Assembly: GCA_015179125.1 (NCBI GenBank)
Contig: WHVA01000244.1
Location: 94,331 to 158,330, forward strand
From: Gautieria morchelliformis
Taxonomy: Eukaryota; Basidiomycota; Agaricomycetes; Gomphales; Gomphaceae
Length of the DNA stretch: 64,000 nucleotides
Direction: 5' to 3'
Shown: one piece after another, positions 6,231 to 28,670 of the stretch
How the letters are laid out: the number at the start of each line of letters is the position of its first letter
Numbering within the stretch: position 1 is the stretch's first letter
The notes under the pieces: model-generated
What the model was told of the DNA's origin: nothing
What the model saw: the letters and a program-made list of their open reading frames with translations, nothing else
Databases searched by the model: none
Program-made: the position numbers and the translations under genes

Positions 6231-6499
6231 TCGCAAAGACGGCTAAGGGTGTCTCAGCGATTTGCACGCAATGCTGTACATTTTCTAAAGATCATTGTTT
6301 AAACCTGGGGGACTGTCTGAGTCAAGCTAGTCAATCACAGTACGACCCACGACCCGTATCCCATAACTTGTCACTTGAGGAGTCAGTCGTTGGAGTTGAG
6401 CCACAACATCGTCCACAGGAAACTCAATCACAGTGGTGGCTATACATAACTTCAAGCCGATTCCACAGATAGCCCAGATGGCACCACTACTCTGAAACT

Positions 6500-7222: not shown

Positions 7223-7226
7223 CTGT

Positions 7227-10200
7227 GTGGGGTGCATCGTTGTAAGAGAATGGCCAATAAACTTTGACCAAGATTTGCTTCGGGAGGGTCATGGTCCATA
7301 TGTCCTCAAGCTGCAGGGCGAACTGTATCATATTCATGGCTCTCTCATCCCTAACCCTGGGAGGCGGATACAGTATGCCCAACTTTATATATATGATCCA
7401 GCATTGGCTTTGGCACAGAGGAACACGCATAACCCAGGTCTGTCTCCAACTATCATGGGAGACTTGCAGGAAATGCTCCTCTTATGCAATCCTCATGTTC
7501 CCATATATAGACAAGCGGCTGAGAGGCTCAGAGCTCAGGGACAGAATGGTGAGATCCGTGCTAGGCTCACATACAGGGAACACAGGGATCCTAGGAGGTA
7601 TAATATCCCTACTGCGGATGAGATTGCGGTGGTTCTTCCTGGAGATGGCATCAACCCTGAACCTAGGGATGTTATTGTCCAGCTCAAAGGTGGACGCTTT
7701 CGAAGGGTATCGGATATGAATCCAAACTATGCCTCTCTTCACTATGTCTTGCTCTTTCCCAGGGGAGAGTTGGGGTGGCAACCTGGTATTCGCTATCGCC
7801 AATTACCAGACGGGCGTGAGCGAAGTGGGCATGTCACCCAAATTCAGTTCCATTCCTATCGTCTCTTCCAGAGAACAGAAGAACCTACAACACTCCTGCA
7901 CGCTGGCAAATTATTCCAGCAGTACATTGTAGACTCTTGGGCCGCTGCAGAGCAAAGCAGGCTGTGGTGGATCAGGACAAATCAACACACTCTCCGTGCT
8001 GAGATGTATAACCAGATGATGGATGCCTTTCATCGCAATGACAATGACAGAGATCCAAACAACTTGGGCATAAGATCCATTCTGCCAGCCACATTTCAGG
8101 GGGGGACACGGGACATGCAGGAAAACCTGCAGAACTCTCTGGCCATTTCAAGGAAGTATGGTGTGGCAGATCTCTTTATTACCATGACTGCCAATCCCAA
8201 CTGGCAGGAGGTATTGGATGCATTGTTGCCCGGACAAACTCCTCAGGACAGGCCTGACCTGGTGTCGCGGGTGTTCCAGCTCAAAAAGAAATACCTCATT
8301 GACTTGATCGTCAAGGAAAAGATTTTTGGGGAAACCGTCGCTCGCGTGCACACCATTGAATTCCAGAAAAGGGGACTCCCACACATGCATATTCTTATCT
8401 GGTTTGAAAGAGATTCCAAGATCAGACATGCACATGAGGTGGATTCAATGATTTCAGCAGAGTTCCCTGATCCAGAGACTCATCCTGTCCTCTACCGGTT
8501 GGTCTGTGAGCTGATGACACATGGTCCCTGTGGACACATGAAACCAAACGCACCCTGCATGGAAAATGGCAAGTGCAAGAAAAACTTCCCAAAGCCATTC
8601 TGTGAGGAAACCAGTCTGAATGAGGATGGATATCCAAAATATCGTCGTCGCAATGATGGAAGGCTGCACAATGTCAGAGGTGACATGCTGGACAACAGAT
8701 GGGTTGTGCCATACTCTGCTCTGCTCTTGCTCAAATTCTGGTGTCACATCAACCCTGAGCTCACCATCAATGTGAGGTGTATCAAGTATATCCACAAGTA
8801 TCTCTACAAGGGCCATGATCGGACCACCATGGAGTTTGGTCGCACCCAGGATGAAATTAAGCAGTACCTGGACGCTCGCTATGTCAGTGCTCATGAGGCC
8901 TGTTGGAGGTTGCTGGAGCGGGAAATCCACACCCAGGTGCCTGCAGTCATGGCACTGCCAGTCCATGAAAAGGACCACCACACGATCATCTTTGATCCCA
9001 ATGAGGATGTGGACAACATCCTCATTAGGGCTGAGGTGAAAAAGACACCGCTCATGGCTTACTTTGAGGCCAATGATATCTACCCTGAAGCACGTGATCT
9101 GCTCTATGTGGAGTTTCCTGAGCATTTTACCTGGCAAGCACAGGAAAAGGTATGGACACCACGCCAAAGAAGCTTTAGCATCGGTCGCCTTCACTTTGCA
9201 AACCCTAAATCAGGAGAGAGATTTTTTGTGCGCACTCTCCTCACAGTGGTCAAGGGGGCTAGATCCTTTGAGGAGCTTAGGTCGGTGGATGGCATACAAT
9301 ATGCTACTTACAAGGAGGCCTGTCGTGCAAGGGGACTTCTGGATGATGATCAGGAGTTGAGGTTGTGTCTCCAGGAAGCCAGTGGCATGAAAACAGGTGC
9401 TCAGCTCAGCCATCTCTTTGCCACCATCCTTGGCCATTGCAATCCATCGGGCCCCGGCAGATTATGGGATGCCTTCAGGGAGCACATATGTGATGATCTC
9501 AGACATCAGCTCCAAATCAGACATGGTATGCAGGATCCACAGGACGATCAGGTTTATGATTTTGGCCTCTTTCTCTTGGAAAAAATCCTCCAGCAGGGTG
9601 GAATGTCCTTGAGCAGCTTTGATGATATGCCTCGGGTGGCAGGCGAGTGGGAGGCCCTCATTGGAAACAGGTTCATAGCTGAGCAGAGGGACTATGACCG
9701 TGTTGAAGAGAGGAACATAGCTGATGAGGAGGTTCCCAGGCTGAATGAGGGGCAAAGGTCCACGCATGATCAGATATTACGGTCGGCACTGACCAGAGAT
9801 GCTCATGGGAAACCTGACGGACAAATGTTTTTTGTCACTGGCTCAGGTGGCGCCGGGAAATCATTCACATGGAACACTCTAATCCACTCCTGTAGAGCGG
9901 AGAGCCTCATTGTGATTGCAGTAGCCTCATCTGCAATGGCTGCACTTATCCTCACTAAGGGTACAACCTCTCATAGCATGCTTGGAATTCCCATTCCTGT
10001 CCATGAGCGCTCTTTCTCCTCCATCAAAAAGAACTCTGACAAGGCTGACATGCTGAGACAGGCCAGTCTCCTCATCTGGGATGAGGCTGCAATGCAGCAT
10101 CGCCATGCCATAGAGGCCATTGACAGGACACTGAGGGATTTCCTTGACCAGCCTGACAGACCCTTTGGTGGCATCACAGTCGCCTTTGGAGGTGACTTTC

Positions 10201-11132
10201 AGCAGACTCTCCCAATTGTCCCTAAAGGCTCCAAGGAGGATATTGTGGGAGCTACCCTTCAGAAGTCATATCTGTGGCCAAAGATCAATGTCCTCCATCT
10301 GACAGAGAACATGCGGGTGAGAAATGACCCTGACAGAGCCAGGTTTGCAGAATGGCTGCAGAATGTGGGCCAGGGAAAGGATCTCCCACTAGATCATACG
10401 TTCTCACTCCCTCCTCACATGGTTTGTGGCCCTGGAATTGAAGATCTGATCCAGGAAATATACCCTGGCATTGGCAATCATGTCCCTGCCCAGGACAATT
10501 ACTTTTTGGAGCGTGCCATCCTCTGTGCCAGAAACACTGAGGTCAATGAGATCAATTCCATGGTGTTTAGGGAGTTTCCAGGTGATGCTCAGGTCTTGCA
10601 CTGCGCAAATTCCATTGAAGAATCCGACGATGCAGATCGGTATCCTGTGGAGTATCTGAATTCCATAGAGATGGGCTCTCTTCCTCCTGCTCGCTTGGAA
10701 GTCAAGCCTGGAGTGCCTCTGATGCTGTTACGCAATTTGGATCAGAAGCAAGGACTATGCAATAAGACAAGATTGCGGTTGGTGAGGATAAGCATTAGAG
10801 TGTTGGAGGTCAGGATCATCTCAGGTCCATGTGCAGGCAATATTGCTTTCATCCCCAGGATCATCATTAAGCCATCAGAGGGAGAGTTGCCATTTGTGCT
10901 GCAAAGGAGGCAGTTTCCAGTGCGTTTGGCATTTGCAATGACTATCAACAAGTCTCAGGGACAGTCTTTGGGAACGGTTGGGCTGGACCTAAGATATCCA
11001 GTGTTTGGACATGGTCAGTTGTATGTTGGTGTATCAAGAGGGACCAATTGGAACAGAGTGAAGGTCTTGCTTGAGGAGGGTTTGGACACAACCAACATTG
11101 TATATAAAGATGTATTACTTAGAGCTCCTTGA
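7227..11132 (+). CDS. Helitron replicase-helicase (HUH Rep plus PIF1-like helicase)
   Basis: An uninterrupted frame of 1301 codons. Helitron_like_N region: GPYVLKLQGELYH and YAQLYIYDPALAL (residues about 25-60), SLHYVLLFPRGELGW (about 170). Rep nuclease: QKRGLPHMHILIW carries the HUH pair (about 385), and KYIHKYLYKGHD with the YVSAHEACWR tyrosine block follows (about 520-560), for nicking and joining single strands in rolling-circle transposition. Helicase (SF1B, PIF1 type): Walker A TGSGGAGKS (about 873), LLIWDEAAM, GGDFQQTLPI, TENMRV, and the C-terminal NKSQGQSLGTVGLDL with YVGVSRGTN. All motifs look intact. Relatives usually have about 100-300 more N-terminal residues; homology here begins about 20 codons in, against the antisense DUF6533 gene, so the 5' end is truncated or rearranged and the stated ATG may not be native. 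It is the only coding-competent transposase of the window. Confidence 0.93.
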   Translation: MGCIVVREWPINFDQDLLREGHGPYVLKLQGELYHIHGSLIPNPGRRIQYAQLYIYDPALALAQRNTHNPGLSPTIMGDLQEMLLLCNPHVPIYRQAAERLRAQGQNGEIRARLTYREHRDPRRYNIPTADEIAVVLPGDGINPEPRDVIVQLKGGRFRRVSDMNPNYASLHYVLLFPRGELGWQPGIRYRQLPDGRERSGHVTQIQFHSYRLFQRTEEPTTLLHAGKLFQQYIVDSWAAAEQSRLWWIRTNQHTLRAEMYNQMMDAFHRNDNDRDPNNLGIRSILPATFQGGTRDMQENLQNSLAISRKYGVADLFITMTANPNWQEVLDALLPGQTPQDRPDLVSRVFQLKKKYLIDLIVKEKIFGETVARVHTIEFQKRGLPHMHILIWFERDSKIRHAHEVDSMISAEFPDPETHPVLYRLVCELMTHGPCGHMKPNAPCMENGKCKKNFPKPFCEETSLNEDGYPKYRRRNDGRLHNVRGDMLDNRWVVPYSALLLLKFWCHINPELTINVRCIKYIHKYLYKGHDRTTMEFGRTQDEIKQYLDARYVSAHEACWRLLEREIHTQVPAVMALPVHEKDHHTIIFDPNEDVDNILIRAEVKKTPLMAYFEANDIYPEARDLLYVEFPEHFTWQAQEKVWTPRQRSFSIGRLHFANPKSGERFFVRTLLTVVKGARSFEELRSVDGIQYATYKEACRARGLLDDDQELRLCLQEASGMKTGAQLSHLFATILGHCNPSGPGRLWDAFREHICDDLRHQLQIRHGMQDPQDDQVYDFGLFLLEKILQQGGMSLSSFDDMPRVAGEWEALIGNRFIAEQRDYDRVEERNIADEEVPRLNEGQRSTHDQILRSALTRDAHGKPDGQMFFVTGSGGAGKSFTWNTLIHSCRAESLIVIAVASSAMAALILTKGTTSHSMLGIPIPVHERSFSSIKKNSDKADMLRQASLLIWDEAAMQHRHAIEAIDRTLRDFLDQPDRPFGGITVAFGGDFQQTLPIVPKGSKEDIVGATLQKSYLWPKINVLHLTENMRVRNDPDRARFAEWLQNVGQGKDLPLDHTFSLPPHMVCGPGIEDLIQEIYPGIGNHVPAQDNYFLERAILCARNTEVNEINSMVFREFPGDAQVLHCANSIEESDDADRYPVEYLNSIEMGSLPPARLEVKPGVPLMLLRNLDQKQGLCNKTRLRLVRISIRVLEVRIISGPCAGNIAFIPRIIIKPSEGELPFVLQRRQFPVRLAFAMTINKSQGQSLGTVGLDLRYPVFGHGQLYVGVSRGTNWNRVKVLLEEGLDTTNIVYKDVLLRAP

Positions 11133-11315
11133 TTTTTAATATCCACTTCTCTTGATATGGTTTATGTGTTTGACTTCATTTTACTTGATGCAAATTGATT
11201 ACTTTGGTTTTCCCCAATGTACTTGACCTTACTGATATGTTAGACTTACTGATGCATTTGACCCTACCGAGGCGCTTGACCTACACCCCCGCGCGAAGCG
11301 CGGGTACCCACCTAG
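11133..11315 (+). mobile_element. Helitron 3' terminus (hairpin and CTAG)
   Basis: The tail contains repeated TTGACCTTACTGAT-type units and then a 17-nt hairpin at 11288-11304 (CCCGCGC-GAA-GCGCGGG), seven bases of TACCCAC and the terminal CTAG at 11312-11315 followed by T. This is the canonical Helitron 3' end (hairpin about 10 nt before CTRR, host T after). The last 100 bp or so recur at five other places in the window. Confidence 0.92.
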
Positions 11316-11379
11316 TTACACTATGTGAAAGCGGCTCGGTGGGAGGTTGTGGGCGCCGCTGACAAATAATATTACATAA

Positions 11380-11520
11380 AAATTAGGTCAGCGGCGAGCG
11401 GCGCAGCCGCGAGCAATGAACGCTGCGCAGCAGCGTCCGCGGTCACGTGACCCGTTCGCGCGTGGTCCGTGCACGACACGCGCGCGCGGTATATAAAGGC
11501 AGTTCGGTAGGGTGGAACGC
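11380..11520 (+). promoter_or_regulatory. GC-rich promoter-like cassette of U1
   Basis: The block has a repeated GCGGCGCAGCCGCGAGC motif, the perfect palindrome GGTCACGTGACC (11441-11452), the conserved GTGGTCCGTGCACGAC and a TATATAAA box at 11490. A long pyrimidine-rich CTGT/CTCT tract follows. The same order recurs at about 14820-15000, 19810-19975 and 21470-21590. Confidence 0.6.
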
Positions 11521-11929
11521 CAGGAATCTGCCCGACCGGCAATTCCTCTCTCTACTGTCTGCTCTGTCTGCTGTGTGCTCACTGCTTTGTCTGCTCTCTG
11601 CTGTGTCTGTGCTGTCTGCTGTCTGCTGTGCTCTCTGGTGTCTCCTCTTTAGCTGGCTGGCTGTGTATTGCTTTGGTTGGCTGGCAGTCTATTGCTTTGT
11701 TTGGCTGGCTATCTATTGGCTTGGCTGGCTTTCTGTTGGTAGGTAATATCTCTTTTTTAATGCATTCCCATGTATTTTATTTTATTTGTGTTTGTAATTT
11801 TATTCATTCCATTTGGTTTTTGATCATATTGTATTGTCACATGTGCTTTATATTTTTGTGGATGTTTTCGAAAATAGATTTAAATAAAATCCCAAGACTG
11901 TGCTGAAAAAAAGTATTTTTATATATATA

Positions 11930-12450
11930 TTTTTCAGGTTTTTTTTGAAAATTGACATTGATAAGTTTACTCTAAAATTAATGACAATAGGTTCTACTTT
12001 TAAATGTGGTTTGTTTTGTTGTTTTATTTACTGTAAAGCTGCCAGGCACTCCTTCTCTGGCTATACTGGTGGCTGGCGTACTATGGCTTTGCCTGGGCTC
12101 TGGGTTTCTCTGTCAGTCTCTGGGCTTCTCTACGCATTAATAACAGCTTCTGCTTCAATGTACTGTACTTTTTTGGCATTTTTTCACAAATAGATGTCAA
12201 TAAATTATCCTGACTTTGTGAAAATTGACAACAGCTCCATACAGTGCATTTTTTGACATTTTTTGAAAAATAGATAATCTTGACTCTGCTAAAATTAATA
12301 ACAGCTTCAGCTTACATGTACTGGACATTTTCTTGACATTTTTTCGAAAAATAGATAATCCTGACTTTGCTAAAATTAATGACAGCAGCTGCTTAAATAT
12401 GGTTTCCTTGACTATTTTATTTATGTCTGTATATGTCACAAAATAGATAT
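11930..12450 (+). repeat. AT-rich 80-90 bp tandem repeats
   Basis: Several divergent units share the core TTTTTTGACATTTTTTCGAA, then AATAGAT, TATCCTGACTTTGCTAAAATTAAT and CAGCTGCTTAAATGT. The same repeats fill about 15380-15930, 16500-16960, 20110-20600 and 21800-22200, always between the promoter cassette and the minisatellite. Confidence 0.75.
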
Positions 12451-12529
12451 TGATACATGTCCCTGAGTTTGCTAAAAGTTAATAAGTAGTATCAGCCTCT
12501 GCTTGCTTCACTTTGAGGCCCTTGGGGAT

Positions 12530-13865
12530 ATGCTACACATGCCATTGGGACATGCTATGCATGCTATACTTGAGGCGCATGCTACACACACTATGCATGG
12601 GGACACGCATGTTATGCGTGGGGACACACACACTATGCTTGGGGACACACATTCTATGAGTGGAGACACTCATGTTATGCATGGAGACACAAATGTGATG
12701 CGTGGGGACACGCACGCTATGCATGGGGACACGCACACTATGCATGGAGACATGCATGTTATGCGTGGGGACACGCACACTATGCTTGGGGACATGCACG
12801 CTATGCTTGGGGACACGCACGCTATGCTTGGGTACACGCACGCTATGCTTGGGGACACGCACGCTATGCTTGGGTACACGCACGCTATGCTTGGGGACAT
12901 GCACGCTATGCTTGGGACACGCATTCTATGTGTGGAGACACTCATGTTATGCATGGAGACACGAATGTTATACGTGGGGACATGCTCGCTATGCTTGGGG
13001 ACATGCACGCTATGCGTGGAGACATGCATGTTATGCGTGGAGACATGCATGTTATGCGTGGGGACATGCACGCTATGCTTGGGGACACACACGCTATGCT
13101 TAGGGACACGCATTCTATGTGTGGAGACACGAATGTTATGCGTGGGGACATGCACGCTATGCTTGGGGACATGCACGCTATGCATGGAGACACGCATGTT
13201 ATGCGTGGAGACATGCATGTTATGCGTGGGGACATGCATGCTATGCTTGGGGACACCCATGTTATGCATGGAGACACGCATGTTATACGTGGGGACAAGC
13301 ATGCTATGCATGGGGACACACACGCTATGCTTGGGGACACCCATGTTATGCGTGGAGACATGCATGTTATGCATGGGGACAAGCATGCTATGCATGGGGA
13401 CACACATGCTATGCATGGGTGCACCCTATGCATGGGGATGTGCACACTATATGTGGGGACACACTATGCTTGGGGGACACGGTACAAGCAAGGGACACAC
13501 TACAGGGGAAAACATTACAAACAAGGGACATTCTACACATGCTATACTTGGGGGACACACTACAAACAAAGGACATGCTATGCACACTACACTTGGGGAC
13601 ATGTTATGCATTGGGGACACACTTTGCACACTATACTTGAGGGAGATGCTACGCATGTGGGACACGCCATGCACACTGTACTAGGGGACATGCTACATGT
13701 AGAGACACACTATGCATGGAGGACATGCTACGCACACTATACTTGGGGACATGTTATGTGTGGGGTCATGTTACAAACCAGGGACACAATAAGCATGCTA
13801 TATTCAAGGCTATGCATGGAGGACATGCTATGCACACTATACTTGGGCACATGCAGACATGTGTA
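12530..13865 (+). repeat. 21-bp minisatellite (about 45 units, then looser units)
   Basis: Unit GGGGACACGCACGCTATGCTT with variants in which CG alternates with TG (ACACGCACGC or ACATGCATGC). Up to about 13430 the period is 21 bp; after that the units become irregular (GGGGACACACTA, TATACTTGGGG). Because 21 is a multiple of three and the unit has no stop in most frames, it opens long Met/His/Gly or Cys/Leu/Gly frames on both strands. I do not regard these as genes. Confidence 0.9.
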
Positions 13866-13868
13866 GAG

Positions 13869-13998
13869 ACATTACCTATCTTGATGTGTTACTTATAGCT
13901 ACTTTCAATTGCAATGAGATGTGTTTTACTTATCCCAAGTTTGATTTACCTAATGCATTTGACCTACACCTCCATGTGAAGCATGGGTATCCACCTAG
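13869..13998 (+). mobile_element. Worn internal Helitron 3' tail in U1
   Basis: CATTACCTATCTTGATGTG, then TTGACTTAT/TTGACC units and a decayed hairpin (CATGTGAAGCATGGG) precede CCACCTAG. All hairpin CpGs of the good copies read TG or CA here. The 3' neighbour is AGG plus LTR fragment, not T. Confidence 0.7.
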
Positions 13999-14000
13999 AG

Positions 14001-14538
14001 GTAAGGGTTCAAGAATCGAGTTAAGTTGGATATCAGAAATCGAGTTGGAAGGCAGAGGTCAGAGAGACAGAGGCCTTGCAAGTACTCGCTGTGCTAAGAA
14101 CAGGAAACAGCGCAAAGGGAGTCACATATCAAAGTCAATTATCTGATTGCAGAACAGAGGCATACATGACTGGGTTTTATACAAAGTGCTGAGACAACAT
14201 GTCAGAAGGTAGAGGTAAGCAATTCTGGTGCGAGCAAAAGTAACCAGGATGATTGGAGTAAGTAACTAATATGGAACAAGAGGAACTACAAGGGGGTGCT
14301 GGGTAGAACTAAGAACAATATGCATGTAGGTCTAATTGATAGTGGAACAAATGGAACTCCTGATGCTCCAGACTTGCTGCTAAGGGTTAAGTAGGGAAGG
14401 CTGGTGAATAGAGTCAAAAGGGGAAGTATGTGAATAGTAAAGAACAAGGGGATCAAAAGGTCAAAGTGTGGACATTGCGGAATAGAGCCAGAGGAGGCAT
14501 GGAGGTACCAGAGTTGGTCAAGCAGCATGATCATAACA
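14001..14538 (+). mobile_element. LTR fragment, family E (5' truncated)
   Basis: From GTAAGGGTTCAAG to CATAACA the sequence matches the right part of the 690-bp family-E LTR at 31521-32214. It is nearly the same as 18994-19552, and both begin at the same point right after a worn Helitron CTAG, so the two were copied together. Confidence 0.7.
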
Positions 14539-15984
14539 TTACCTACCTTGATGTGTTACTTAGAGCTACTTTCAATCAATAAGATGTGTTTTACTTATCT
14601 GAAAGAAATTTTCTTATTCGAATGTGTTTGACTTATCCCAAGTTTGATTCACCCAATGTGTTTGACCTTGCTGATGCGTTTGACCTTACTGAGGCGTTTG
14701 ACTTGCACCCCTGCGCGAAGCGCGGGTATCCACCTAGTTCCTATAGGTGAAAGTAGCACGGTGGGAGGTTGTGGGCGCGCTTACAAATAATATTACGTAA
14801 AGCTTATGTCAGCGGCCAGCGGCGCAGCCGCGAGCACCAACGCTGCGCAGCGGTCACGTGACCGGCAGACCGGCGTGAACCTGGAGCGCGAGCGGCGCAG
14901 CCGCGAGCATGAACGCTGAGCAGCGGTCACGTGACCCGTTCGCGAACAGCGTACGAGCATGGTCCGTGCACGACGCGCGCGCGGTATAAAGGCCGCACGG
15001 TAAGGAGGGAACACTAGGAACCTGCCCAACCGGCGATTCCTCTTTCTGCTGTGTGCTCTGTCTGCTGTCCCCTCTGTGTGCTGGCTGCTCTGTGTGCTGT
15101 CTGCTCTGTGTGCTGTCTCCTCCTGTAGCTGGCTGGCTGTCTATTGCTTTGGCTGGCTGGCTATCTATTGGCTTGGCTGGCTTTCTATTGCTAGGTAATA
15201 TCTTTTTTAATGCATTGCCATGTATTTTATTTTATTTGTGTTGGTAATTTTATTAGTTCCTTTTTTTCTCATCATATAGTATTGTCACATTTGCATTATA
15301 TTTTGTGATCTTTTCAAAAATAGATTTAAATAACATCCAAAGACTGCAGAAAAAAATGTATTTTAATATCAATATTTTTCAGGTTTTTTTCGAAAATTGA
15401 CATCAATAAGTTTCCTCTAAAATCAATGACAATAGATTCTGCTTTTAAATGTGGTTTGTTTTATTGTTTTATTTACTGTAAAGCTGCTTACCAGGCACTC
15501 CTCTCTGGCTATACTGGTGGCTGGCTTACTATGGGCTCTGGGTTTCTCTGTCAGTCTCTGGGCTTCTCTGGCTTTGGCTGGGCATTAATAACAGCTTCTG
15601 GTTCAATGTACTGTACTTTTTTGACATTTTTTCGCAGATAGATGTCAATAAATTATCCTGACTTTATGAAAATTGACAACAGCTCCAGCTTAAATGTACA
15701 GTGCATTTTTTTGACATTTTTCGAAAAATAGATAATCTTGACTCTGCTAAAAATTAATAACAACTTCAGCTTAAATGTACTGGACATTGGTTTTGACATT
15801 TTTCAAAAAATAGATAATCCTGACTTTGCTAAAATTAATGACAGCAGCTGCTTAAATATGGCTTCCTTTACTATTTGTCTGTATATGTCACAAAATAGAT
15901 ATTGATACATGTCCCTGAGTTTGAGAAAAGTAAATGATAAGTAACAGCCTCTGCTTGCTTCACTTTGAAGCCCTTGGGGATATG

Positions 15985-16350
15985 CTACACATGCCATTGG
16001 GACATGCTATGCATGGGGACAGGCATGTTATGCATGGAGACACATATGTTATGCGTGGAGACATGCATGTTATGCATGGGGACACGCATGGTATGTGTGG
16101 AGACATGCATGTTATGCATGGGGACAAGCATGTTATGAGTGGAGACATGCATGTTATGCATGGGGACAAGCATGCTATGCGTGGGGACACGCATGCTATG
16201 CTTGGAGACATGCATGTTATGCATGGGGACATGTATGCTATGCGTGGGGACACGCATGCTATGCTTGGAGACACACATGTTATGCATGGGGACACATATG
16301 CTATGCATGGGGACATGCATGCATGTGGGGACACACTATTCTTGGGGACA
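15985..16350 (+). repeat. Minisatellite block 2 (21-bp type)
   Basis: About 17 units of GGGGACATGCATGTTATGCAT type, the same family as at 12530 but richer in TG. Flanked by the same ATGCCATTGGGACATGCTATGCATG lead-in that precedes block 1. Confidence 0.85.
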
Positions 16351-17029
16351 GACAGGTATCCCACTGAAATGTATTTTAATTTTTTTATTTGGAATTTTAT
16401 TATTTTTCACTTTATAATTTTGTGAAATTTTTTGAAAATAGATTTAAATAATCCCAAGGCTTTGCTGAAAGAAATGTATTTTAATATAGATATTTTTCAG
16501 GCTTTTTTCGAAAATAGACATCAATAAGTTCCCTCTAAAATTAATGAGATTCTGCTTTTAAATGTGGTTTGTTTTATTGTTTTATTTACTGTAAAGCCAC
16601 TTACCAGCCACTCCTCTCTGGCTATACTGGTGGCTGGCTTACTATGGCTTTGGCTGGGCTCTGGGTTTCTCTGTCAGTCTCAGGGCTTCTCTGGCTTTGG
16701 CTGGGCATTAATAACAGCCTCTGCTTCAATGTACTGTACTTTTTTGACATTTATTCGCAGATAGATGTCAATAAATTATCCTGACTTTGTGAAAATTGTC
16801 AGCTTAAATGTACAGTGCATTTTTTTGACATTTTTCAAAAATAGATAATCTTGACTCTGCTAAAATTAATAACAACTTCAGCTTAAATGTACTGGACATT
16901 TATTTTGACATTTTTTGAAAAATAGATATTGATACATGTCCCTGAGTTTGCGAAAAGTTAATGATAAGTAACAGCCCCTGCTCGCTTCACTTTGAAGCCC
17001 TTGGGGATATGCTACACATGCCATTGGGA

Positions 17030-17690
17030 CATGCTATGCATGCTATACTTGAGGGGCATGCTACACACACTAACATGCATGCTATGCATGGGGATGTGCA
17101 CACTATATGTGGGGACACACTATGCTTGGGGGACACAGTACAAACATGGGACACACTACAGGGGAAAACACTACAAACAAGGGACATTCTACACATGCTA
17201 TACTTGGGGGACACGCTACAAACAAAGGACATGCTATGCACACTATACTTGGGGGACATGTTATGCATTGGGGACACACTTTGCACACTATACTTGAGGG
17301 AGATGCTACACACACTACATGTAGGGACATGCTACACATGTGGACACACTATGCATGGGGGACACACATGCTATAGTTTAGGGACACACTATGTTTGGGC
17401 ACATGCTACAAACCAGGGACATGCTACACACAAAATACTTGAGGGACATGTTATGCATGTGGGACATGCCATGCACACTGTACTGCATGTGGGGACACAC
17501 TACATATGGAGACATGCTACATGTGGAGACACACTACGCACACTATGCTTGGGGACACACTACGTGTGGGGACATGCCACATGTGAGGACATGCTCCATG
17601 TGAGGATGCAATACGTGTGAGGACAGATAAAGTGTGATGACACACTACAGGCAAGGACACACTACATGTGAGGTAGGGGATATGAGACAT
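17030..17690 (+). repeat. Minisatellite block 3 (irregular units)
   Basis: Units of GGGGACACACTAC, CATGCTATACTTGGG and similar, matching the irregular half of block 1 (13430-13860). The order of variants is shared with block 1, so the two are copies rather than independent arrays. Confidence 0.8.
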
Positions 17691-17715
17691 GGGAGAAATG
17701 TGGAGAGTCATTACC

Positions 17716-18205
17716 TGTTATGTATCAGGTTTGGATCTAAAGGGACTGCAGCTTCAACTTATATGTTGCACCCCCAACTATCATCCTAAGTATTTTTGAG
17801 ATCTGAGATTGGAAGTTGGAAGAGGTTGAGTATTGTAACTGAAGTAGTAAGGGTTCAAGAATTGAGTTAAGTTGGATATCAGAAATCAAGTTGGAAGGCA
17901 GAGGTCAGAGAGACAGAGGCCTTGCAAGTACTTGCTGTGGTAAGAACAAGAAACAGTGCAAAGGGAGTCACATATCAAAGTCAATTATGTGATTGCAGAA
18001 CAGAGGCACACATGACTGGGTTTTATACAAAGAGCTGAGACAACATGTCAGAAGGTAGAGGTAAGCAATTCCAGTGCAAGCAAAAGTAACTAGGATAAAT
18101 GGAGTAAGTAACTAATACGGAACAAGAGGAACTACAAGGGGGTGCCGGGTAGAACTAAGAACAATCAATAGGCAAAAGAACAAGGGGAATGTGGGTCTAA
18201 TTGAT
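17716..18205 (+). mobile_element. LTR fragment, family E (3' truncated)
   Basis: Starts TGTTATGTATCAGG and follows the family-E LTR until it is cut by another copy at 18206. Part of its middle matches 14001-14300. Confidence 0.65.
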
Positions 18206-18861
18206 TGTTACATATTGGAATTCCCAGAGGTCGGAACTGGAAAGGACAACGGCTTCAACTTATGTGTTGCGCCCCTGATGAACTAGGCAGAAGTCGGGAA
18301 CAGAGTACTGAGAGTCAAGGTTCGAGGGCCGGAGAACAAAGGTCGGAAGAGGCGGAGGACAGAGGGTCGAGAGCGGAAGGAGACAAGACTAGCAAAACTC
18401 GCTGTGCTAAGAACAGGAGACAGTGCCAAGGGAATCACATATCGAAGTTGATTATCTGATTGCAGGAATGGAGACATACATGAGGGGGTTTTATACAAAG
18501 AGCTGAAGCAACAGGTAATGGTATGGTACTAAGCAAATTCTGGAGAGTGCAGGAATCGGATAGACATACGGGGCAAGTAACTAATGTGGAACAATGGGAT
18601 GACAACGGGGGTGCAGGGTAGGGTAAGTACAATGGGAAAGAACAAGGCAAGTATGTACAATAGGCCTCGGAAGAAACGGAATTACGGAAATGGTATCTTG
18701 CTGTGTTCAGTGTTGAGTACGGGGGCCGGTATCTGGAGGTGGCCAGGGGTACTGAAATCACAAGGGTCGAGGTAGAGGGTTGCAGATGGTGCGGATGTTG
18801 TGGAATAGAGTTGGAGGAGGTGTGGAGGTACTGGAGTTGGTCAACCAGTATGGTCATAACA
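18206..18861 (+). mobile_element. Family E LTR, nearly complete
   Basis: Runs from TGTTACATATTGG to GGTCATAACA, about 656 bp, with TGTTA..TAACA ends, the expected TG..CA. Aligns with 31521-32214 throughout. Confidence 0.7.
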
Positions 18862-18991
18862 TTACCTACCTTGGAATGTGTTTGACTTATCCCAAGTTTG
18901 ATTCACCCAATGCGTTTGACCTTGCTGATGCATTTGACCTTACCGAGGTGTTTGACCTATACCCCTGTGTGAAGCATGGGTATCCACCTAG
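18862..18991 (+). mobile_element. Worn internal Helitron 3' tail in U2
   Basis: TTACCTACCTTGGAATGTGTTTGAC, TTGACC units and hairpin remnant CTGTGTGAAGCATGGG, then CCACCTAG at 18988-18991. It parallels 13869-13998, including the junction to the E fragment that follows. Confidence 0.7.
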
Positions 18992-18993
18992 AG

Positions 18994-19552
18994 GTAAGGG
19001 TTCAAGAATTGAGTTAAGTTGGATATCAGAAATCGAGTTGGAAGGCAGAGGTCAGAGAGACAGAGGCCTTGCAAGTACTCGCTGTGCTAAGAACAGGAAA
19101 CAGCGCAAAGGGAGTCACACATCAAAGTCAATTATCTGATTGCAGAACAGAGGCACACATGACTGGGTTTTATACAAAGAGCTGAGACAACATGTCAGAA
19201 GGTAGAGGTAAGCAATTCCAGTGCAAGCAAACGTAACTAGGATAAATGGAGTAAGTAACTAATACGGAACAAGAGGAACTACAAGGGGGTGCCGGATAGA
19301 ACTAAGAACAATCAATAGGCAAAAGAACAAGGGGAATGTGGGTCTAATTGATAGTGGAACAAATGGATCTCCTGATGCTCCGGACTTGCTATGCTAAGGG
19401 TCAAGTAGGGAAGGCCGGTGAATAGAGTCAAAAGGGGAAGTATGTGAATGGTAAAGAACAAGGGGATCAAAAGGTCAAAGTGTGGACGTTGCGGAATTTA
19501 GCCAGAGGAGGCATGGAGGTACCAGAGTTGGTCAAGCAGCATGGTCATAACA
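18994..19552 (+). mobile_element. LTR fragment, family E (5' truncated, second copy)
   Basis: Near-duplicate of 14001-14538 with the same truncated start (GTAAGGGTTCAAGAA) and end (CATAACA). Confidence 0.7.
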
Positions 19553-20614
19553 TTACCTACCTTGATGTGTTACCTAGAGCTACTTTCAATCAATAAGATG
19601 TGTTTTACTTATCTGAAAGAAATTATCTTATCCGAATGTGTTTGACTTATCCCAAGTTTGATTTACCCAAGGCATTTGACCTTGCTGATGCGTTTGACCT
19701 TACCGAGGCGTTTGACTTGCACCCCCGCGCGAAGCGCGGGTATCCACCTAGTCTAAGAGTGAAACGGGGGCAGTGGGTTGTGGGCGCCGCTGACTAATAA
19801 TGTTACGTAAAAATTAGGTCAGCGGCGCAGCCGCGAGCCCTAGGTCCAGGCCCAGGCCAGACCATTGACGCTGCGCAGCAGCGTCCCAGGTCACGTGACT
19901 GGTTCGCGTTCATCGCGACCATACGCGAGGGTGGTCCGTGCACGACCCTTCGCTCAGTATAAAGAGAGCGATGCTGCAGCACCGCACTCCCCACTGGTGT
20001 CTTCCTGTGTTCTGGCTGTACTGCTGGGCTTACTATTGCTTTGGCTGGGCTCTGGGTGTCTTTGTGTGTGTCTCTGGGTGTCTCTGGGCTTCTCTGGCTG
20101 TGAATTGACACCAGCTTCTGCTTCAATGTCCTGTATATTTTTTTGATATTTTTTCGCAAATACATATTAATAAGCCTAACTTATTAATAGCCAACTTAAT
20201 TATCCTGTACATTTTTTTGATATTTTTTCGCAAATAGACATCAATAAATCTAACTTGCTAACCTTAATCACTGCCAACTTAAATATCCTGTACATTTTTT
20301 TGATATTTTTTCGCAAGTAGATATCAATAACTTATTCTGACTTGGCTAAAGTTAATAACAACTTCTGTTTTAATGTAGTGTGTTTTCTTTTTATCTTTTT
20401 TTGAAAAATAAATATAGATATCAATGAATTATCCTGACTTTGCTAAACTTAGTACCAGCTTCAGCTTAAATGTAGTGTACATTTTTTTGACATTTTTTTA
20501 AAAGGTAGATATCAATAAATTATCCTGACTTTGCTAAAATTAATGACAACAGCTGCTTAAATGTGGTTTCTTTTTCTATTGTATATATGTCACAAAATAG
20601 ATACTGATACATGT

Positions 20615-20930
20615 CCCTGATATGTGTGAGGACACGTTACGTTTGGGGACATGCTACCTGTGAGGACACGTTACGTGTGGGGACATGCTACCTGTGAGGA
20701 CACATTACGTGTGGGGACACACTGCCTGTGAGGACACGCTACCTGTGAGGACACTCTACCTGTGAGGACACGCTACCTGTGAGGACACGCTACCTGTGGG
20801 GACATGCTACCTGTGAAGACACGTTACGTATGGGGACACGCTACCTGTGAGGACATGCTACCTGTGGGGACATGCTACCTGTGAAGACACGTTACGTATG
20901 GGGACACGCTACGTGTGAGGCCATGCTATC
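20615..20930 (+). repeat. Minisatellite of U3, 19-20 bp type
   Basis: Units alternate GTGAGGACACGCTACCT and GTGGGGACATGCTACCT or TTACGT. A related array lies at about 22220-22595 in U4. It is a distinct subfamily from the 21-bp arrays of U1 and U2. Confidence 0.8.
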
Positions 20931-20936
20931 CAACTG

Positions 20937-21250
20937 CACTTTGGGTCTTCCCCCGTTTCTGATTTTGGTATTGTTTCTGGTTCTGTGAGAGTGTCACCGG
21001 AGGATCAGCTGGCATATTGATATAACCACATTGTCAACATTCAGGATCCCCAAGATCACTATTGGATCTATTTCACAATGCACAAGCTTTGAAACCTGTG
21101 GATTATGACAATAGGCGCAATCTTATAATCTCTGATGATTCAGTCAAGACCATTACCACTTTCATGTCTAGAGTCGCTGGGAAGGCCATCCCAGAGGTCA
21201 AGAGGGAGGTCTGCATGTTTGGCTGTTCCAGGGGGCATACATGATTCATG
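20937..21250 (+). other. Unique cargo segment of U3, possible captured gene fragment
   Basis: Shared with 22597-22920 in U4 at high identity and otherwise unique in the window. In U4 a frame reads VSGSVRVSPEDQLAYRYNHI and continues to WIYFTMHKL before a stop; in U3 the Arg codon CGA of that frame is TGA. I do not recognise the protein. Confidence 0.5.
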
Positions 21251-21399
21251 ATAATATATGAACAGGGATATAATTTGCATGATGCTTTTTATTTGCCACA
21301 ATGCACTTGACCTTACTGATGGGTTTGACCTTACTGATGGGTTTGACCTTACTGATGGGTTTGACCTACACCCCCGCGCTTCGCCGGGTACCCACCTAG

Positions 21400-23035
21400 T
21401 CTAAGAGTGAAACGGGGGCAGTGGGTTGTGGGCGCTGCTGACCAATGCTTGGTCATCAGTTTGTCAGTGGAGCGCGCGAGGAACGCAGCCGCGAGTTACA
21501 AATGCTGCGCAACAGCATTCCAGGTCACGTGACCGGTTCGCGACCATATGCGAGTGGTCCGTGCACGACCCTTCGCTTGGTATAAAGAGAGCGATGGTGC
21601 AGAACCGCACTCCCCACTGGTGTCCTCCTGTGTTCTGGCTGTGGTGGGCTTACTACTGCTTTTGCTTTGGCTGGGGTCTTGGTGTCTTTCTGGGTGTCTC
21701 TGGGTGTCTTTCTGTGTGTCCCTGGGTGTCTTTCTGTGTGCCTCTGGGTGTCTTTCTGTGTGTCTCTGGGCTTCTTTGGCTGTGAATTGACACCAGCTTC
21801 TGCTTCAATGTCCTGTATATTTTTGATATTTTTTCGCAAATTGCTATTAATAAACCTAAGTTGCTAACCTTAATAATAGCCAATTTAAATATCCTGTATA
21901 TTTTTTTTTTGATATTTTTTCGCAAATAGCAATCAATAAATCTAACTTCCTAACCTTAATAACAGCCAATTTAAATGTCCTGTACATTTTTTTGATATTT
22001 TTTCGCAAATAGATATCAATAACTTATTCTGACTTTGCTAAAGTTAATAACAACTTCTGTTTTAATGTAGAGTGTTTTTTTTTTATCTTTTTTCAAAAAA
22101 TAAATATAGATATCAATGAATTATCCTGACTTTGCTAAAATTAATGACAACAGCTGCTTAAATGTGGTTTCTTTTCCTAATTTATATATGTCACAAAATA
22201 GATACTGATACATGTCCCTGATATGTGTGAGGACACGCTACCTGTGAGGACACATTACGTGTGGGGACACCTTTTGTGTGAGGACACGCTACCTGTGGGG
22301 ACACGTTACATGTGAGGACACTTTATGTGTGGGACACGTTACGTGTGGGGACACGCTACCTGTGAGGACATGTTACGTTTGGGGACACGCTACCTGTGAG
22401 GACACGTTACATGTGGGGACACCTTTTGTGTGAGGACATGCTACCTGTGGGGACACGTTACATGTGAGGACACGTTATGTGTGGGACATGTTACGTGTGG
22501 GGACATGCTATGTGTGGGGCCAAGCTACCTGTGAGGACATGTTACATGTGAGGACACATTACGTATGGGGACACACTACCTGTGAGGACACGTTACATTT
22601 TGGGTCTTCCCCCATTTCTGATTTTGGTATTGTTTCTGGTTCTGTGAGAGTGTCACCGGAGGATCAGCTGGCATATCGATATAACCACATTGTCAAAATT
22701 CATGATCCCCACGGTCACTATTGGATCTATTTCACAATGCACAAGCTTTGAAACCTGTGGATTATGACAATGGGCGCAATCTTATAATCTCTGTGATTCA
22801 GTCAAGACCATTACCACTTTCATGTCTAGAGTTGCTGGGAGGGCCATCCCAGAGGTCGAGAGAGAGCTCTGCATGTTTGGCTGTTCCGGGTGCATACATG
22901 ATTCATGATACTATATGAACAGGGATATATTTTGCATCATCCTATTTACCCCAATGCACTTGACCTTACTGATGCATTTGACCTTACTGAGGTGTTTGAC
23001 CTGCACCCCCGCGTGAAGCGCGGGTACCCACCTAG
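21400..23035 (+). mobile_element. Tandem Helitron unit U4 (non-autonomous)
   Basis: Starts TCTAAGAGTGAAACGGGGG after the U3 CTAG and ends at CTAG 23032-23035, 1636 bp. Same order as U3: cassette with perfect GGTCACGTGACC (21523-21534) and TATAAA (21581), tract of TCTGGGTGTCTTTCTG repeats, AT-rich repeats, minisatellite (22220-22595), cargo segment (22597-22920), tail and hairpin CCCGCGTGAAGCGCGGG. It is a sister copy of U3. Confidence 0.85.
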
Positions 23036-26000
23036 TCTTTCATAAGATGAAAGCCGCGAGCTTTGTGGTTCCACGGTCTTCAAAATGTTTGACGCCCTTT
23101 AGAGTTCCGTAGGTTGACCTTTCGTGCACATTTGTAGTGAGCGCGGCTGGGATCCCCGACTCTCTCCGAAGGAGAGGGAGGGCTGTATGAACGCAAATAA
23201 CCGTGCTTGCGGTTTTGCGGAGGAAATTGTATTAATTCTATTGGATGAGTCTTCCTATTGGTCTTTCGTCCCTGGTGGTGTCTTGTCTTAAGCATCCGTC
23301 CCTCTTTCCGTATCCTTCCGTCTTTGTCGTGCCTTGGCTTACTCAGATTGACGCTGACCACCCCTGTTTTCTGCTACACGCCGTCCTTGCGCGGCTGCGC
23401 TGCTACTTTACGAGGGCTTTTAGCTGTTTGTTTATTCCCTGCGTAGTATCAGCCTCTCCTTGCAGACGGACGGCATTCAATTTTGGGCCTTTCAGCCTGT
23501 GCTCCTCATGTGCAGGCATCCATTGAGGTGAATGGGTGAGGAATGCAACGATTTTATGCGTTGCCGGGTACGGGATCATATTAGGTTTATTGGTTGAGTC
23601 GTTTCCTTGCTATGTCAGGCTTGGCGGGTGACACACCCCTTAGGGGATCTATTCCACCCTCAGTCTTTTGCAGCGATAGGGAGGGTGTTATATATAACGA
23701 CGGGCTGGACGATGTGGGAAAAAACACCGCCCCCCTCCCTGTCCTCTCCCATCTCACTGCTTGAATACGTTATCCCGCTTCCCTCCCTCTGCTCCCCCAT
23801 CTTGCTGCTGGAACACGTTCATCTTGTCTCCCTGTCGCGAATGTCTTTTCCACCGCATGTGAGTTGTGCATCGTAACTTCATTTGACAGATCAGTGTCTG
23901 ATAGTATCTATCTATTTCGATTAATGTAATGGAATTATCAATATCAATTGATTTAAAGTTGATAAATAATTTGGATATTGAACGTTGTTGTGATGGTAAT
24001 CCATCGTGGATGATTTTCAATAACGAACATCGCATTCTGTCTTTGAGATCCGCACTTAAAAAGGAATTACTTGCTTCTTTGCGTAAAGTTCGTCCTCGTA
24101 CACGGTATGAGCGGTGTTCTACGGAGCACCTGGTGCTTATTCTGGTCGGTTTCTGTTATGATCACTGTCAATATTTCGGGAATTGTTCTAATGGAGAGTT
24201 ACTTTCGCACCTTCGCTCGCTTGAAGTGAAATGCGATGTCGGGTCACGTCGATCTTATTTGTTAGCCAGCGTTTTTGAATGTACATATGGCACACAAATG
24301 TTTTCGCTATTGCGTCAGCCTCCCACACACATACAGCAGAACGCTGCCGTGGATCCAGTTAAGTTGCCGTATAATGAATTGTTTTCAGAAACATTTTCCT
24401 TTTCTTGTCAAGTGTTAAATACATGTAAAATTAAATCATGTCTTCAAGGTTTGCATGTCTGTAGAAGGCCGGCTATTGGTCGAGACTTTGCGTCATTGGC
24501 TAACGGCCTTATATCGGTCTTTCGGAATCGATGTCGTGCTCTTCAAGAGTACGACCATTCTTCTTTAGTACAGGTGTTCATGTGTTATGAACCTTTTCAG
24601 ACAAAGTTTGCGTTGCAATGAAAAGAGCTCATCCTTTCTATTCTACGTCACGAAGATGGCATTGATGTTACACGCGTTATGACACAGAGCAGTCGCACTT
24701 CGCGTCACGGAATCGTTCAAAAAGAGCAGCGTGCGAGTATTCGTGAAGATATGGATGAGAAGGTTTTTGAAGAAAGGTTAGCCGTTGTAGGTCGTTGGCC
24801 ACAGACGATTTCTGCAACGGTCGTTCAAAATTGCATGAGAACATATAAAAATGAGACTTGTTATGTACTGCCATCGTCTTGTGCTTGCTGTGCCCGTGCT
24901 CGCACAGGGCTGCACATTCATTCAATAACCGTGCATCCTTATGAGCAATTACCTCACAACTTGGCTATCCTTCGTTTCTTGGATCCATTCTTGGCAGAGT
25001 ATTTTAATCATACAGATCATGTTGGCGTGTCTTATTGTACACCTGTACTGAATGGGTTGCTGCTTTGGAAGGAAGCAGTTGTATTTTGCGATGAAGATCA
25101 ATGTACAGTCATTAATTTGTGTGCAGATTGTTACAATGCTCTAGGACGAGGAAAAATGCCGCGGTTTGCATTGGCAGACAACTTTTATCGTGGTCGGTTG
25201 CCAGTAGATCTTCAAGACTTGACTTGGATTGAAGAGATGTGCTGTGCTGTTTACCAAACCACCGCTCATGTTACTCGTTTGTATGAATCTAGCGATGATA
25301 AAGATCCATTTCTCTATCATGGAAATACGTGTGCACATGAGATGAATATTATTTCTACCGCTCAATCATTGCCTCGTACTGTCGCTGATATAAATGGTGT
25401 CCTCTCAATTGTTTTCGTTGGGCGTCGCAAATTTAATCCTCAAAAACTTGGCATGTTTTTTCGGGTCCGAAAACAAAAACTTTGCACTTTTTTGTTATTT
25501 TTGAAGGAGAATAACAAACTGTATTCTGATATCCCATTGTCACTTGCTGCATTGGATGAATATCCTGATAATGATACTTTGTCGGGTATTGAAGATAGAG
25601 TTGTGTATGATCGTGTCAGTCATTCAGATGAAGTGTTTGAGGAAGAAACCGCGGGCTTTACTTGTCATCCTGCAGCTGATCGTTCAAATGAAAACTCTCA
25701 GATGGATTTCATGCTTGAAGCAATGGGTTTATCAGATCCTGAGAATTCTCGTATGCCTGCACGCTCATTTGCAGCATCGGCATTGCGTAACTTGATTCCA
25801 CGGGATACAACTGTGCCGGACCTTGTCATCGCCCATGGAGATGCTATAAATGAATATAATAATCCTGCATTGCTACCGGGAATGTTTCCTACTTTGTATC
25901 CACTTGGTACAGGTGGTTTTGAAGATGAAGGACGTGTTACGCCTGTTGGGTTTCGGCCTCAGGCTGAATATTATCTTGATCTTGATGACCGTTGCTTTTG

Positions 26001-28670
26001 ATATCATAAATTTTTTAAGTTTGTGGTGTTGAATATATATCAAAGGCGCTTAAGTCACTTGCACACATCTTTTACGGTGCGGCGTGAGGACTTTGGAGAA
26101 ATTGCAAAGAAGTTTAGTAATCTAACATCCCATCAACTAGAAAGATTAGCTACTCATTTAGAACATGAAAAGAGTTTACAAAGTTTATCTGCAGAAGATC
26201 GGGTTGGTTTGGATCTGTTATGTCGTGTAAATATGATTTCCGCCCATATTCCTGGTTCTCAAAGTTCAAAACTGTATGCGCATAATTGTATCCGCAGCTA
26301 TTTTGGACTGTTTGGGATGCCTCTTATTTATCTAACCCTAAATCCTTGTGCAGCTCATAGCCCTATGTTTCAGTTAATGTATGGAGACATCAATGTCGAT
26401 TTGACAGCTCAGTATCCTGCTTTGGTTTCTATAGGAGAGTGAGCACTTAGATTAGCCAAAGACCCAGTGGCTGCATCAGATTTCTTCACATTTTCTATCC
26501 AGTGTATATTTGAACATTTATTTGGTTGGGATTATAAAACCAATAGTAGTTGTAACACTGGTGGTATTCTTGGTCATTTGCAAGCATGGTCTGGAACAGT
26601 AGAATTGACAGAACGTGCAAATTTTCATGGACACTTTCTAATTTGGGTGTTGGGTGGTCTTAACCCGTGTGAAATACATCACCGACTTAGAATAGATTCT
26701 GATTTTGAACAACGTTTCTTTGCATATTTTGAATCTATTAGTTGCCATGATTTGCCTAATGTAGATTATGAGCCCCGTTCTAATTACGAGCCTCGTGTTG
26801 AACGACCACGTTTACTTCCTACTGTGGATGCATCAGAATTTGAATGGCAAGACTGGAATGAATATTTCCTTTATGAAATAAAAGCGTGTGGTGAATCATT
26901 GCAAAGACATACTCATCGCAAGGTATGTTATAAGTATGGTAAGAGTAATACTTGTCGTTTTTTGTTCCCACATGAGATTATAGACCATTCGTTTTTTGAT
27001 AAAGAGACAAACTCTGTTTTCCTTATGTGTCGGGATGCAACTGTTAACTTTTTTAATCCATATATCCTTGTAATGAGCCGTCACAATCACGATATCAAGT
27101 GTATATTATCAGGCCATGCTGCAAAAGCTGCCATGTTTTATATTACAGATTACATCACTAAAGCAGACCTTAAAACCTATGAGATGTTATCCTTAATGTC
27201 TACCGCAGTATCTTCTATTGACAACCAAATTTCATCCAACAATGTAGAACATGCAAAGCTTCTATTACATCGTTGTCTTTCCCAATACACACGTCAACAA
27301 CAAATCCATGGACAACAGGCTGTAAGATATTTATGAGGATTAGATGATACTAGGATGTCGCATAAAACCATTGCGATGTCGTCAGGACTGTTACTGATGC
27401 ATGTCCATCAGTTTTATGGAGACAGGAAATGTAACTCATTGTTGTCGGACATAACTGAGGAACATTGTGAAAATCCTACTATTCGGCTTAGTGTGGATTA
27501 TAAAGGTTGTTTAGTTGACAATAATCAGGTGTTTGATTACTGGTTCCGTGACGATGATTTGGGCGGGTTGAATTTTTATGACTTTGTTCGCTGCGTACGA
27601 GTTCAGAAATTAAAAAACATTGATGAAAACCATGGTGCCAGTTATCGACGGTTTTCCTTGAAATATCCCCATTGCCTTTCACAGACACATGAGTTGGTTT
27701 TACATACAGATCCTGAAAAGTATGAGTTAGCATCAAACTTACAAGTGCCTAGAATTGTTGGCTGTTCAGTTCCTCGTAAAAGTAATGATCGTCAATATGC
27801 GTTGTTTATGGTAGCACACTTCAAACCTTTCAGCCCAACTATTCCTCTTATTTTAGAAAATGAGTCTTTTGAAGATGTCTATGAGTCTTATGCATTTTCT
27901 GCATTTAGTTTACGTGTAATGTGTAATTGGGAGGCTATGTATGAATGTGAGGATGAACGGGATGCTGAACGTATACGTAAACGTAATCAGTTGTTTAAGA
28001 AACCTAATGAAATGAGTGTTGCATTAGCAACTTCAGATGAAGATGTGGATGTTGATTTGCATTTGAACCCCTCCCTTTCGAAAGTAACAGATTCCAATGT
28101 TACAAAAGTACTTGGCTTGTTGCAATCATCTAATTGGTTCATAACTGATGGTGAATATTCACATCTTGCATCAGAAGATAATATCCCACTTCTGCCCGTT
28201 TTATCACCTGCTCTCATTAAAAGATGGAAGACAGATATTAAACAACAAGAAGCATTGATTATGCAAAATCGTCATAACATGTTGGATGTTGATAACCAGC
28301 AAGCCTCATCCATTGTAAGTACAACACTCACACATGAAGAAATTAAATATGTATGTGTTGCATCATCACGTCAACCTCGCTCAACAGTACCTGGTTTTGA
28401 CAATAACAATCCTCCTAGATCAACCGTTGACTTGTGTTTACAGATCTGTGAGAAATTTACGTTGAATGTTAAGCAGCGGATTGCATTTGTTATCGCAGCT
28501 GATTCATGGTTGCGGTTACGCTCTTTTCATGAACAGTCTCTATTTCTATCATCAGACAGTGCTCTTGAACGACCTACACCGCTTCGTATGTTTTTAACAG
28601 GTCCTGGAGGAACAGGGAAAACACATGTCATTCATGCATTAAATGACCTAATGTCTTCTTATGGACGTCC
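23036..28670 (+). mobile_element. Tandem Helitron unit U5, second Helitron family, 3' truncated
   Basis: Begins TCTTTCATAAGATGAAAG directly after the U4 CTAG; the 5' end can form a CTTTCAT/ATGAAAG hairpin. The 5' region shares nothing else obvious with U1-U4. After about 900 bp of leader with a TATATATAA box near 23690 it carries the broken helicase gene below. No CTAG terminus is found at its right; it runs into the ankyrin gene near 28.67 kb. Confidence 0.6.

Follow-up and report, generated by a model that had tools for sequence, protein, structure and literature searches.

Spacerless head-to-tail Helitrons in Gautieria morchelliformis: an array probably assembled by serial insertion at resident 5' ends

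In a stretch of 64,000 nucleotides of the Gautieria morchelliformis genome (contig C276, positions 94331-158330; hereafter the window), the 3' end of a Helitron is followed at once, five times in succession and always in the same orientation, by the 5' start of a further unit. Such an arrangement raises the question of whether a single element was copied past its own terminator and inserted as a concatemer, or whether separate elements were inserted one against another. The initial annotation of the window had put forward both explanations. Our analysis of the assembly, 122 Mb in 1113 contigs, supports serial self-targeted insertion and does not support a concatemer. The array is probably a pile of separate Helitron insertions, favoured at the A/T step made up of the A before a resident element and the first T of that element.

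Organization of the array

The five junctions lie exactly where they had first been annotated, with CTAG ends at 11315, 14737, 19751, 21399 and 23035 and the T of the next unit directly after each. The truncation of the first unit at its 5' side, revealed by a copy on contig C25, had gone unnoticed. Units and junctions are as follows:

7263..11315, + strand: U0, Helitron of the autonomous type, its 5' part missing (domains, Helraiser structure, C25 copy)
11288..11315, + strand: 3' terminator of U0, hairpin CCCGCGCGAAGCGCGGG and then TACCCACCTAG (direct reading)
11315..11316, + strand: junction U0/U1, CTAG followed by TTACACTATG (direct reading)
11316..14737, + strand: U1, non-autonomous Helitron with a 21-bp minisatellite; a further 3' end lies inside it at 13998
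14737..14738, + strand: junction U1/U2, CTAG followed by TTCCTATAGG (direct reading)
14738..19751, + strand: U2, non-autonomous Helitron; a further 3' end lies inside it at 18991
19751..19752, + strand: junction U2/U3, CTAG followed by TCTAAGAGTGAAAC (direct reading)
19752..21399, + strand: U3, 1648-bp non-autonomous Helitron with a 17-bp minisatellite and a variant hairpin
21399..21400, + strand: junction U3/U4, CTAG followed by TCTAAGAGTGAAAC (direct reading)
21400..23035, + strand: U4, 1636-bp non-autonomous Helitron
23035..23036, + strand: junction U4/U5, CTAG followed by TCTTTCATAAG (direct reading)
23036..28690, + strand: U5, probable second, broken Helitron family (right limit by eye)

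The open frame of U0 (7212-11132, 1306 amino acids) contains, according to Pfam, Helitron_like_N (PF14214, 3.3e-58) and PIF1 (PF05970, 1.2e-65), and residues 25-1285 of this RepHel protein match the Helraiser structure 7lcc (E 7e-253). Its motifs are GLPHMHILIW (HUH, here HMH), KYIHKYLYKG (the two-tyrosine motif KYxxKY) and GKS (Walker). The C25 copy is 6664 bp long, starts as TCTAAGAGTGAAACG directly after an A, ends in CTAG and has an open frame of 1729 amino acids. Its positions 2612-6665 correspond to 7263-11316 of the window (98.15% over 4054 bp), and the match extends through CTAG to the T that follows it. Given that the match begins at position 2612, the first 2.6 kb of U0 are missing, and the true left boundary of the array lies outside the window.

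CTAG closes U0 to U4, and the 5' ends are TC in U3, U4 and U5 and TT in U1 and U2. The hairpin type ascribed to all the 3' ends is correct for the shared CCCGCGCGAAGCGCGGG form, which in U0 is subterminal, 11 bases ahead of the end, but U3 is a variant with CCCGCGCTTCGCCGGG in place of CCCGCGCGAAGCGCGGG; its terminator (21370-21399) reads GCGCTTCGC, one base shorter than the GCGAAGCGC of the other units. No open frame comparable to the U0 RepHel was found in U1-U4, and these elements contain minisatellites with a repeat length of 17 or 21 bp (12591-13419, 16003-16321, 20625-20928 and 22225-22596). In U5, DUF6570 and Helitron_like_N pieces were detected by Pfam in separate frames, and one copy of its 5' start was examined; the right-hand start of the fifth junction is probably that of a Helitron. 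A 3' end of U5 was sought and not found.

Recurrence of the joins in the genome

Starts, joins and terminators were counted genome-wide as exact patterns, which miss decayed copies and other families. The terminator GAAGCGCGGGTAYCCACCTAGT, which includes the right half of the hairpin, had 870 matches and its reversed control none. Among the first 30 of them in contig order, a Helitron 5' start came directly after 24; one case was uncertain (L032) and five had none, including L021 and L022, which are near-identical contigs. The search for CTAG-TC junctions proposed with the initial annotation returned 307 cases of CTAG before the TC-type start TCTAAGAGTKAAACG, out of 417 such starts; a further 99 were preceded by A and 11 by neither, so that 318 had a base other than A in front. 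For the TT-type start TTMCWMTAKRTGAAAG, only CTAG- and A-preceded cases were counted, the remaining preceding bases being left out, and these, the starts of U1 and U2 among them, amounted to 441 (277 after CTAG, 164 after A). Pooling both types, 584 spacerless joins stand against 263 A-preceded starts. The description of the window as Helitrons in a spacerless head-to-tail array is supported. The join ACCTAGTCTAAGAGTGAAAC, as at U2/U3, alone has 85 exact places.

CTAG begins at 0.2% of window positions and yet precedes most TC-type starts, and the junctions are therefore not due to chance. The short word CTAGTCT was not enriched in the window (6 against 6.0 in shuffles), which indicates that the signal resides in the full ends. 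In the loci fetched for closer study, a set rich in arrays (L003 and L014 being one and the same locus), T came directly after 66 of 67 distinct CTAG ends, and in 56 of 63 distinct 3'-end contexts a recognisable Helitron start came next, always from the identical base, mostly joining unlike sequences.

Evidence for insertion between A and T

Outside Helitron ends, TC-type starts follow A in 99 of the 110 non-CTAG cases. Forty A-preceded ends were sampled at even steps, 20 from the 99 TC-type and 20 from the first 100 listed of the 164. Judged by eye, 32 lie in non-Helitron DNA and eight in or against another Helitron; BLAST of the flanks against 31 units agreed for seven of these eight and missed L127, which has short tips only (see below), while a single 23-base match in the flank of L107 was counted as chance.

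An empty site, which the initial annotation had suggested looking for, was found for a left flank. On C204 the left end of the array lies within a high-copy repeat, of which 40 copies were scored at 98-100%, counting the query locus itself. Where the array has CTCTTGTACA/TCTAAGAG, with A directly before TCTAAGAG, the uninterrupted copies L070 and L072 both read CTCTTGTACA/TTACAATA (CTCTTGTACA/TTACAATATAAAAGG), which is the target typical of canonical Helitrons. The motif was not found in a third copy of the repeat, L071, searched on one strand. In addition, at C269:119318/119319 (L075, C269:119180-119460) two TTCCTATAGG starts form an exact head-to-head pair with one AT in common (GGAATTCC), which means that A/T at the 5' boundary of a resident was used.

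Two further arrangements near starts were seen. At L073 (C20) and L074 (C354), a minus-strand start lies 38 or 41 bp ahead of a plus-strand CTAG/TTCC join, as if one element had entered another within its final 40 bp. At L067 (C204) and L102 (C231), Helitrons start 5 bp apart in apparently one high-copy repeat, immediately ahead of the TATAAAAGG of that repeat; this position is perhaps a shared hot spot.

Proposed growth of the array

Direct observation covers the junctions, the strong A rule outside Helitron ends, the mixing of families, the independence of neighbours, a single empty left site and a single head-to-head pair at a 5' boundary, and the following scheme is built on these. Members of several related families, which the HUH/PIF1 RepHel of U0-type elements presumably mobilizes, would enter between A and T, the favoured site being the A before an existing Helitron together with the first T of that Helitron. 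The CTAG end of the newcomer would then meet the T of the older copy and the A would stand before the newcomer, giving A-[new..CTAG][T..old]. The new A/T on the left would renew the site, arrays would grow at their 5' (left) side, and the left unit of a pair would be the younger one. The 5' end could become a one-strand target if RepHel nicks the transposon strand of the resident as it does at the start of transposition.

Several observations weigh against this scheme. The A rule is not absolute, as 11 of the 110 non-CTAG TC-type starts have no A, and the two of them inspected, L115 (after G) and L116 (after T), lie in other DNA. The empty-site evidence concerns the left flank only, the right boundary of the C204 array not having been reached, and no allelic pair differing by one unit was found (C42 and C43 are collinear). 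One head-to-head pair was present among the 129 listed A-preceded ends compared, against 584 CTAG joins; if A/T served as a target on both strands alike, the two orientations should be equally frequent, and the scarcity of head-to-head pairs implies that 5'-boundary targeting must favour one strand. With respect to age, A stands before 29 of the 86 heads of CGCGGGGGG type and before 70 of the other 331 (Fisher P=0.02); this head is not specific to young elements, and U1 (closest relative 97%) is not clearly older than U0 (98% to the copy compared). An age order drawn from U0-type heads was considered weak and was not used as proof, the CGCGGGGGG head being found also on shorter non-autonomous units.

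A second form of serial insertion would place newcomers at the 3' boundary, with RepHel targeting CTAG/T so that they enter behind a copy or at internal junctions. CTAG/T is identical to the joined-end junction of a Helitron circle, and this route would give the same junction with no head-to-head products. Published cases also lend it support: maize lines exist with the left element alone, both or neither, insertion at G/T being one reading (PMC2267711), and Helraiser circles with exact CTAG/TC junctions are active donors (PMC4778049). However, G/T would be an exception, used almost solely at such joins, to the A found before the 5' T in 99 of 110 TC-type cases elsewhere, and the C269 pair at a shared AT would be left unexplained. 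These two points favour the 5' A/T route, and we regard entry at the 3' boundary as rather unlikely. Repeated insertion at the T after CTAG, as suggested earlier, is a possible form of serial insertion.

Short 5' tips

Several starts are preceded by short 5' tips, every one ending in A: TTCCTA, TTACACTA, TCTA, TTA and TCTAAGA. They occur at L036, L078, L082, L087, L092, L110, L123 and L127, and in 4 of the 40 ends of the even-step sample (L110, L123, L127 and L078). The string at L092 (C757:10640-10850) is TTCCTA/TTCCTA/TTACACTA/.../TCTAAGAG, with TCTA among its tips; L127 reads TTCCTA/TTCCTA/TTCCTATAGG and L036 reads CTAG/TTACACTA/TCTAAGAG.

We considered whether the tips are remnants of insertion inside a resident 5' end. 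Exact searches for the reciprocal right halves, with CTAG followed by TAGGTGAAAG and three patterns like it, gave no match in the loci fetched up to that point, which contain 63 distinct 3'-end contexts. Moreover, TCTA, TTA and TCTAAGA would not end at the A/T of known starts, and therefore this simple explanation fails for at least part of the tips. They are possibly abortive insertions of 5' tips. More specifically, and tentatively, the resident 5' terminus might act as a strand-specific landing site, where a RepHel nick is joined to the strand of another Helitron; abortive events from the same nicking would add A-ended tips of 3-8 bases, and each tip would renew A/T.

Comparison of neighbouring units

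Read-through of rolling-circle replication past the terminator, followed by insertion of the resulting concatemer of one element, would account for joins that are spacerless and all in one orientation, and tandem arrays of plants and bats have been so interpreted (PMC5876387). It requires that adjoining units be copies of one element, which is not what was found. Twenty-eight complete units were tiled in six arrays selected by length and hence non-random (the window, C25, C80, C140, C204 and C269), giving 22 neighbour pairs, and similarity was scored as coverage times identity against random placements. The mean for neighbours was 29.6 against 34.2 (standard deviation 5.5) in the permutations (P=0.79), and the best match was the adjoining unit in only 1 of the 28.

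The near-equal lengths of U3 and U4 were correctly measured in the initial annotation and taken there as a sign of concatemers. U4 is indeed 88% identical to U3 where the two can be aligned (71% of the unit as a whole), but only 84.4% over its 5' part, which scores best with units of C204 and C269 (88%) and reaches 91.5% with one of C841 (L093). The 5' part of U3 has its closest fetched relative, at 96.4%, in a C140 unit and not in U4, and the similar lengths are consequently no evidence of a concatemer. Bypass of an end may occur in this family, as the internal 3' ends at 13998 and 18991 suggest. Nevertheless, with neighbours no more alike than random pairs, U3 nearer to a C140 unit than to U4, and a single left unit adjoining many right units (see below), the read-through explanation does not agree with the data and we consider it highly improbable.

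The double 3' ends form a distinct observation. They are found in the window at 13873-14737 and 18866-19751 and also at L041, L042, L066, L093, L096 and L097. In these units an inner CTAG is followed by AGGTAAGG, a common extra sequence and a second full 3' end. The extra sequence is about 540 bp in the window, 84-99% identical between loci and present in pieces in L041 and L042. A single old event of end bypass, amplified afterwards, fits this pattern.

Diversity of right-hand neighbours

The initial annotation had also named the possibility that the junction is an internal part of a single larger element. In ten U0-type loci (L001, L002, L003, L004, L005, L007, L023, L024, L032 and L034), the last 1.3-1.4 kb are 96.4-99.5% identical. 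After CTAG there are TTACACTAT units (83-93%), in other loci a TCAAAAAG or a TCTAAGAG unit, and in L032 no sequence that could be aligned. It must be considered that the first eight loci were fetched with the U0/U1 junction as query, which makes the TTACACTAT neighbours a biased choice, while L023, L024, L032 and L034 were fetched by the terminator pattern alone. Compared with the U0/U1 junction of the window, L002-L005 and L007 show 97.5-99.5% identity in the left element but 86-92% in the right one, the drop falling at CTAG/T. A second left element (L009, L013, L020, L028 and L037), 96.5-98.1% identical in the nine of ten pairs listed, precedes four different starts and once other DNA.

On the other hand, the tail of U0 together with U1 recurs on C841, where collinearity with the window continues through the junction at about 95.5%; U1 finds its best match there (97%) among 40 scored relatives. 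This would suit a larger composite element or a segmental duplication of the array. The unit after U1 is, however, U2 in the window and a TCTAAGAG unit on C841, and elsewhere an identity of 96-99.5% gives way at CTAG/T to one of 83-93% or to none. These varied neighbours exclude an internal junction of one larger element, and a composite or duplication as general cause; the probability left to either is very small. C841 was rejected as an allele without U2, the unit following U1 there being only about 89% identical to U3 or U4, and C42 and C43 were rejected as alleles with and without a unit, being collinear at 97.4%.

Misjoining of scattered Helitron reads is very improbable: the analysis is of the assembly and several contigs start inside Helitron units, but the 56 of 63 contexts join mostly unlike sequences at one exact base, whereas misjoins would be expected within long repeats. 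A link with telomeres was likewise rejected for the ends checked. Only the motifs TTAGGG and CCCTAA were looked for, in the initial 1000 bases of 14 contigs (14 of 20 regions); there was one stray TTAGGG (L060) and none elsewhere, and 10 of the 14 contigs had terminators near that end.

Other features of the window

Directly after U5, at 28647-30842, there is a long ankyrin-like repeat frame, named from its translation, with a 99-bp tandem repeat in 17 copies. Frames at 40596-45945 resemble, judging from their translation, a broken gag-pol retrotransposon.

Relation to known Helitrons and implications

Canonical Helitrons such as Helraiser/Helibat share with the present elements a RepHel with HUH (HMH), KYxxKY and PIF1, the CTAG end (canonically CTRR) with its subterminal hairpin, and, apparently, entry after A and before T; both the RepHel (Rep/HUH plus PIF1) and the subterminal 3' hairpin that characterize them are present here. 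Two differences were observed: many units start with TT (TTACACTAT, TTCCTATAGG) instead of TC, and most counted 5' ends adjoin another Helitron. Helentrons, or Helitron2, are defined by terminal inverted repeats, a T/T target and a hairpin that lies at some distance from the terminus, and the subterminal hairpin and the A mostly found before the start set our elements apart from them.

Tandem Helitrons of bats and plant centromeres were reportedly described by Pritham and Feschotte in 2007 and by Xiong et al. in 2016, works known to us through papers citing them. The joins are head-to-tail there too, but they were read as rolling-circle repeats, whereas the neighbours studied here are unlike.

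In maize, one CTAG/TC junction of two unlike Helitrons was explained by consecutive insertion, and both insertion routes were stated for this pair (Du et al., 2008; PMC2267711); that is one case, against 584 exact joins of two 5' types in the present genome. FoHeli of Fusarium oxysporum and a three-copy tandem of Metarhizium (PMC5148889) likewise show a Helitron beside or in the 5' end of another and multiple 5' termini, but they are said to resemble the Helitron2 variant and are single cases. Overall, tandem or head-to-tail Helitrons are on record in bats, maize, rice, Drosophila and plant centromeres, and singly in ascomycete fungi (PMC2267711, PMC4778049, PMC5148889, PMC5876387). A literature search, with most subscription papers outside its reach, found no published genome where another Helitron adjoins the majority of the counted 5' ends of a family. 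Head-to-tail Helitrons and both routes are therefore already in print; what is unusual here is the scale, the mixing of families and the short 5'-tip scars.

The origin of spacerless arrays, by read-through or by serial insertion, has so far been argued in the accessible literature from limited cases in bats, maize and plant centromeres. The 584 joins of this genome, of which those closely examined mostly connect unlike units, tell against concatemers, and the choice between A/T at the 5' side and G/T at the 3' side can be tested by comparison of strains. The 17- and 21-bp minisatellites of the non-autonomous units are a possible seed of satellite DNA. If it is true that Helitrons aim at their own kind, they would build long arrays, and host genes may be spared.

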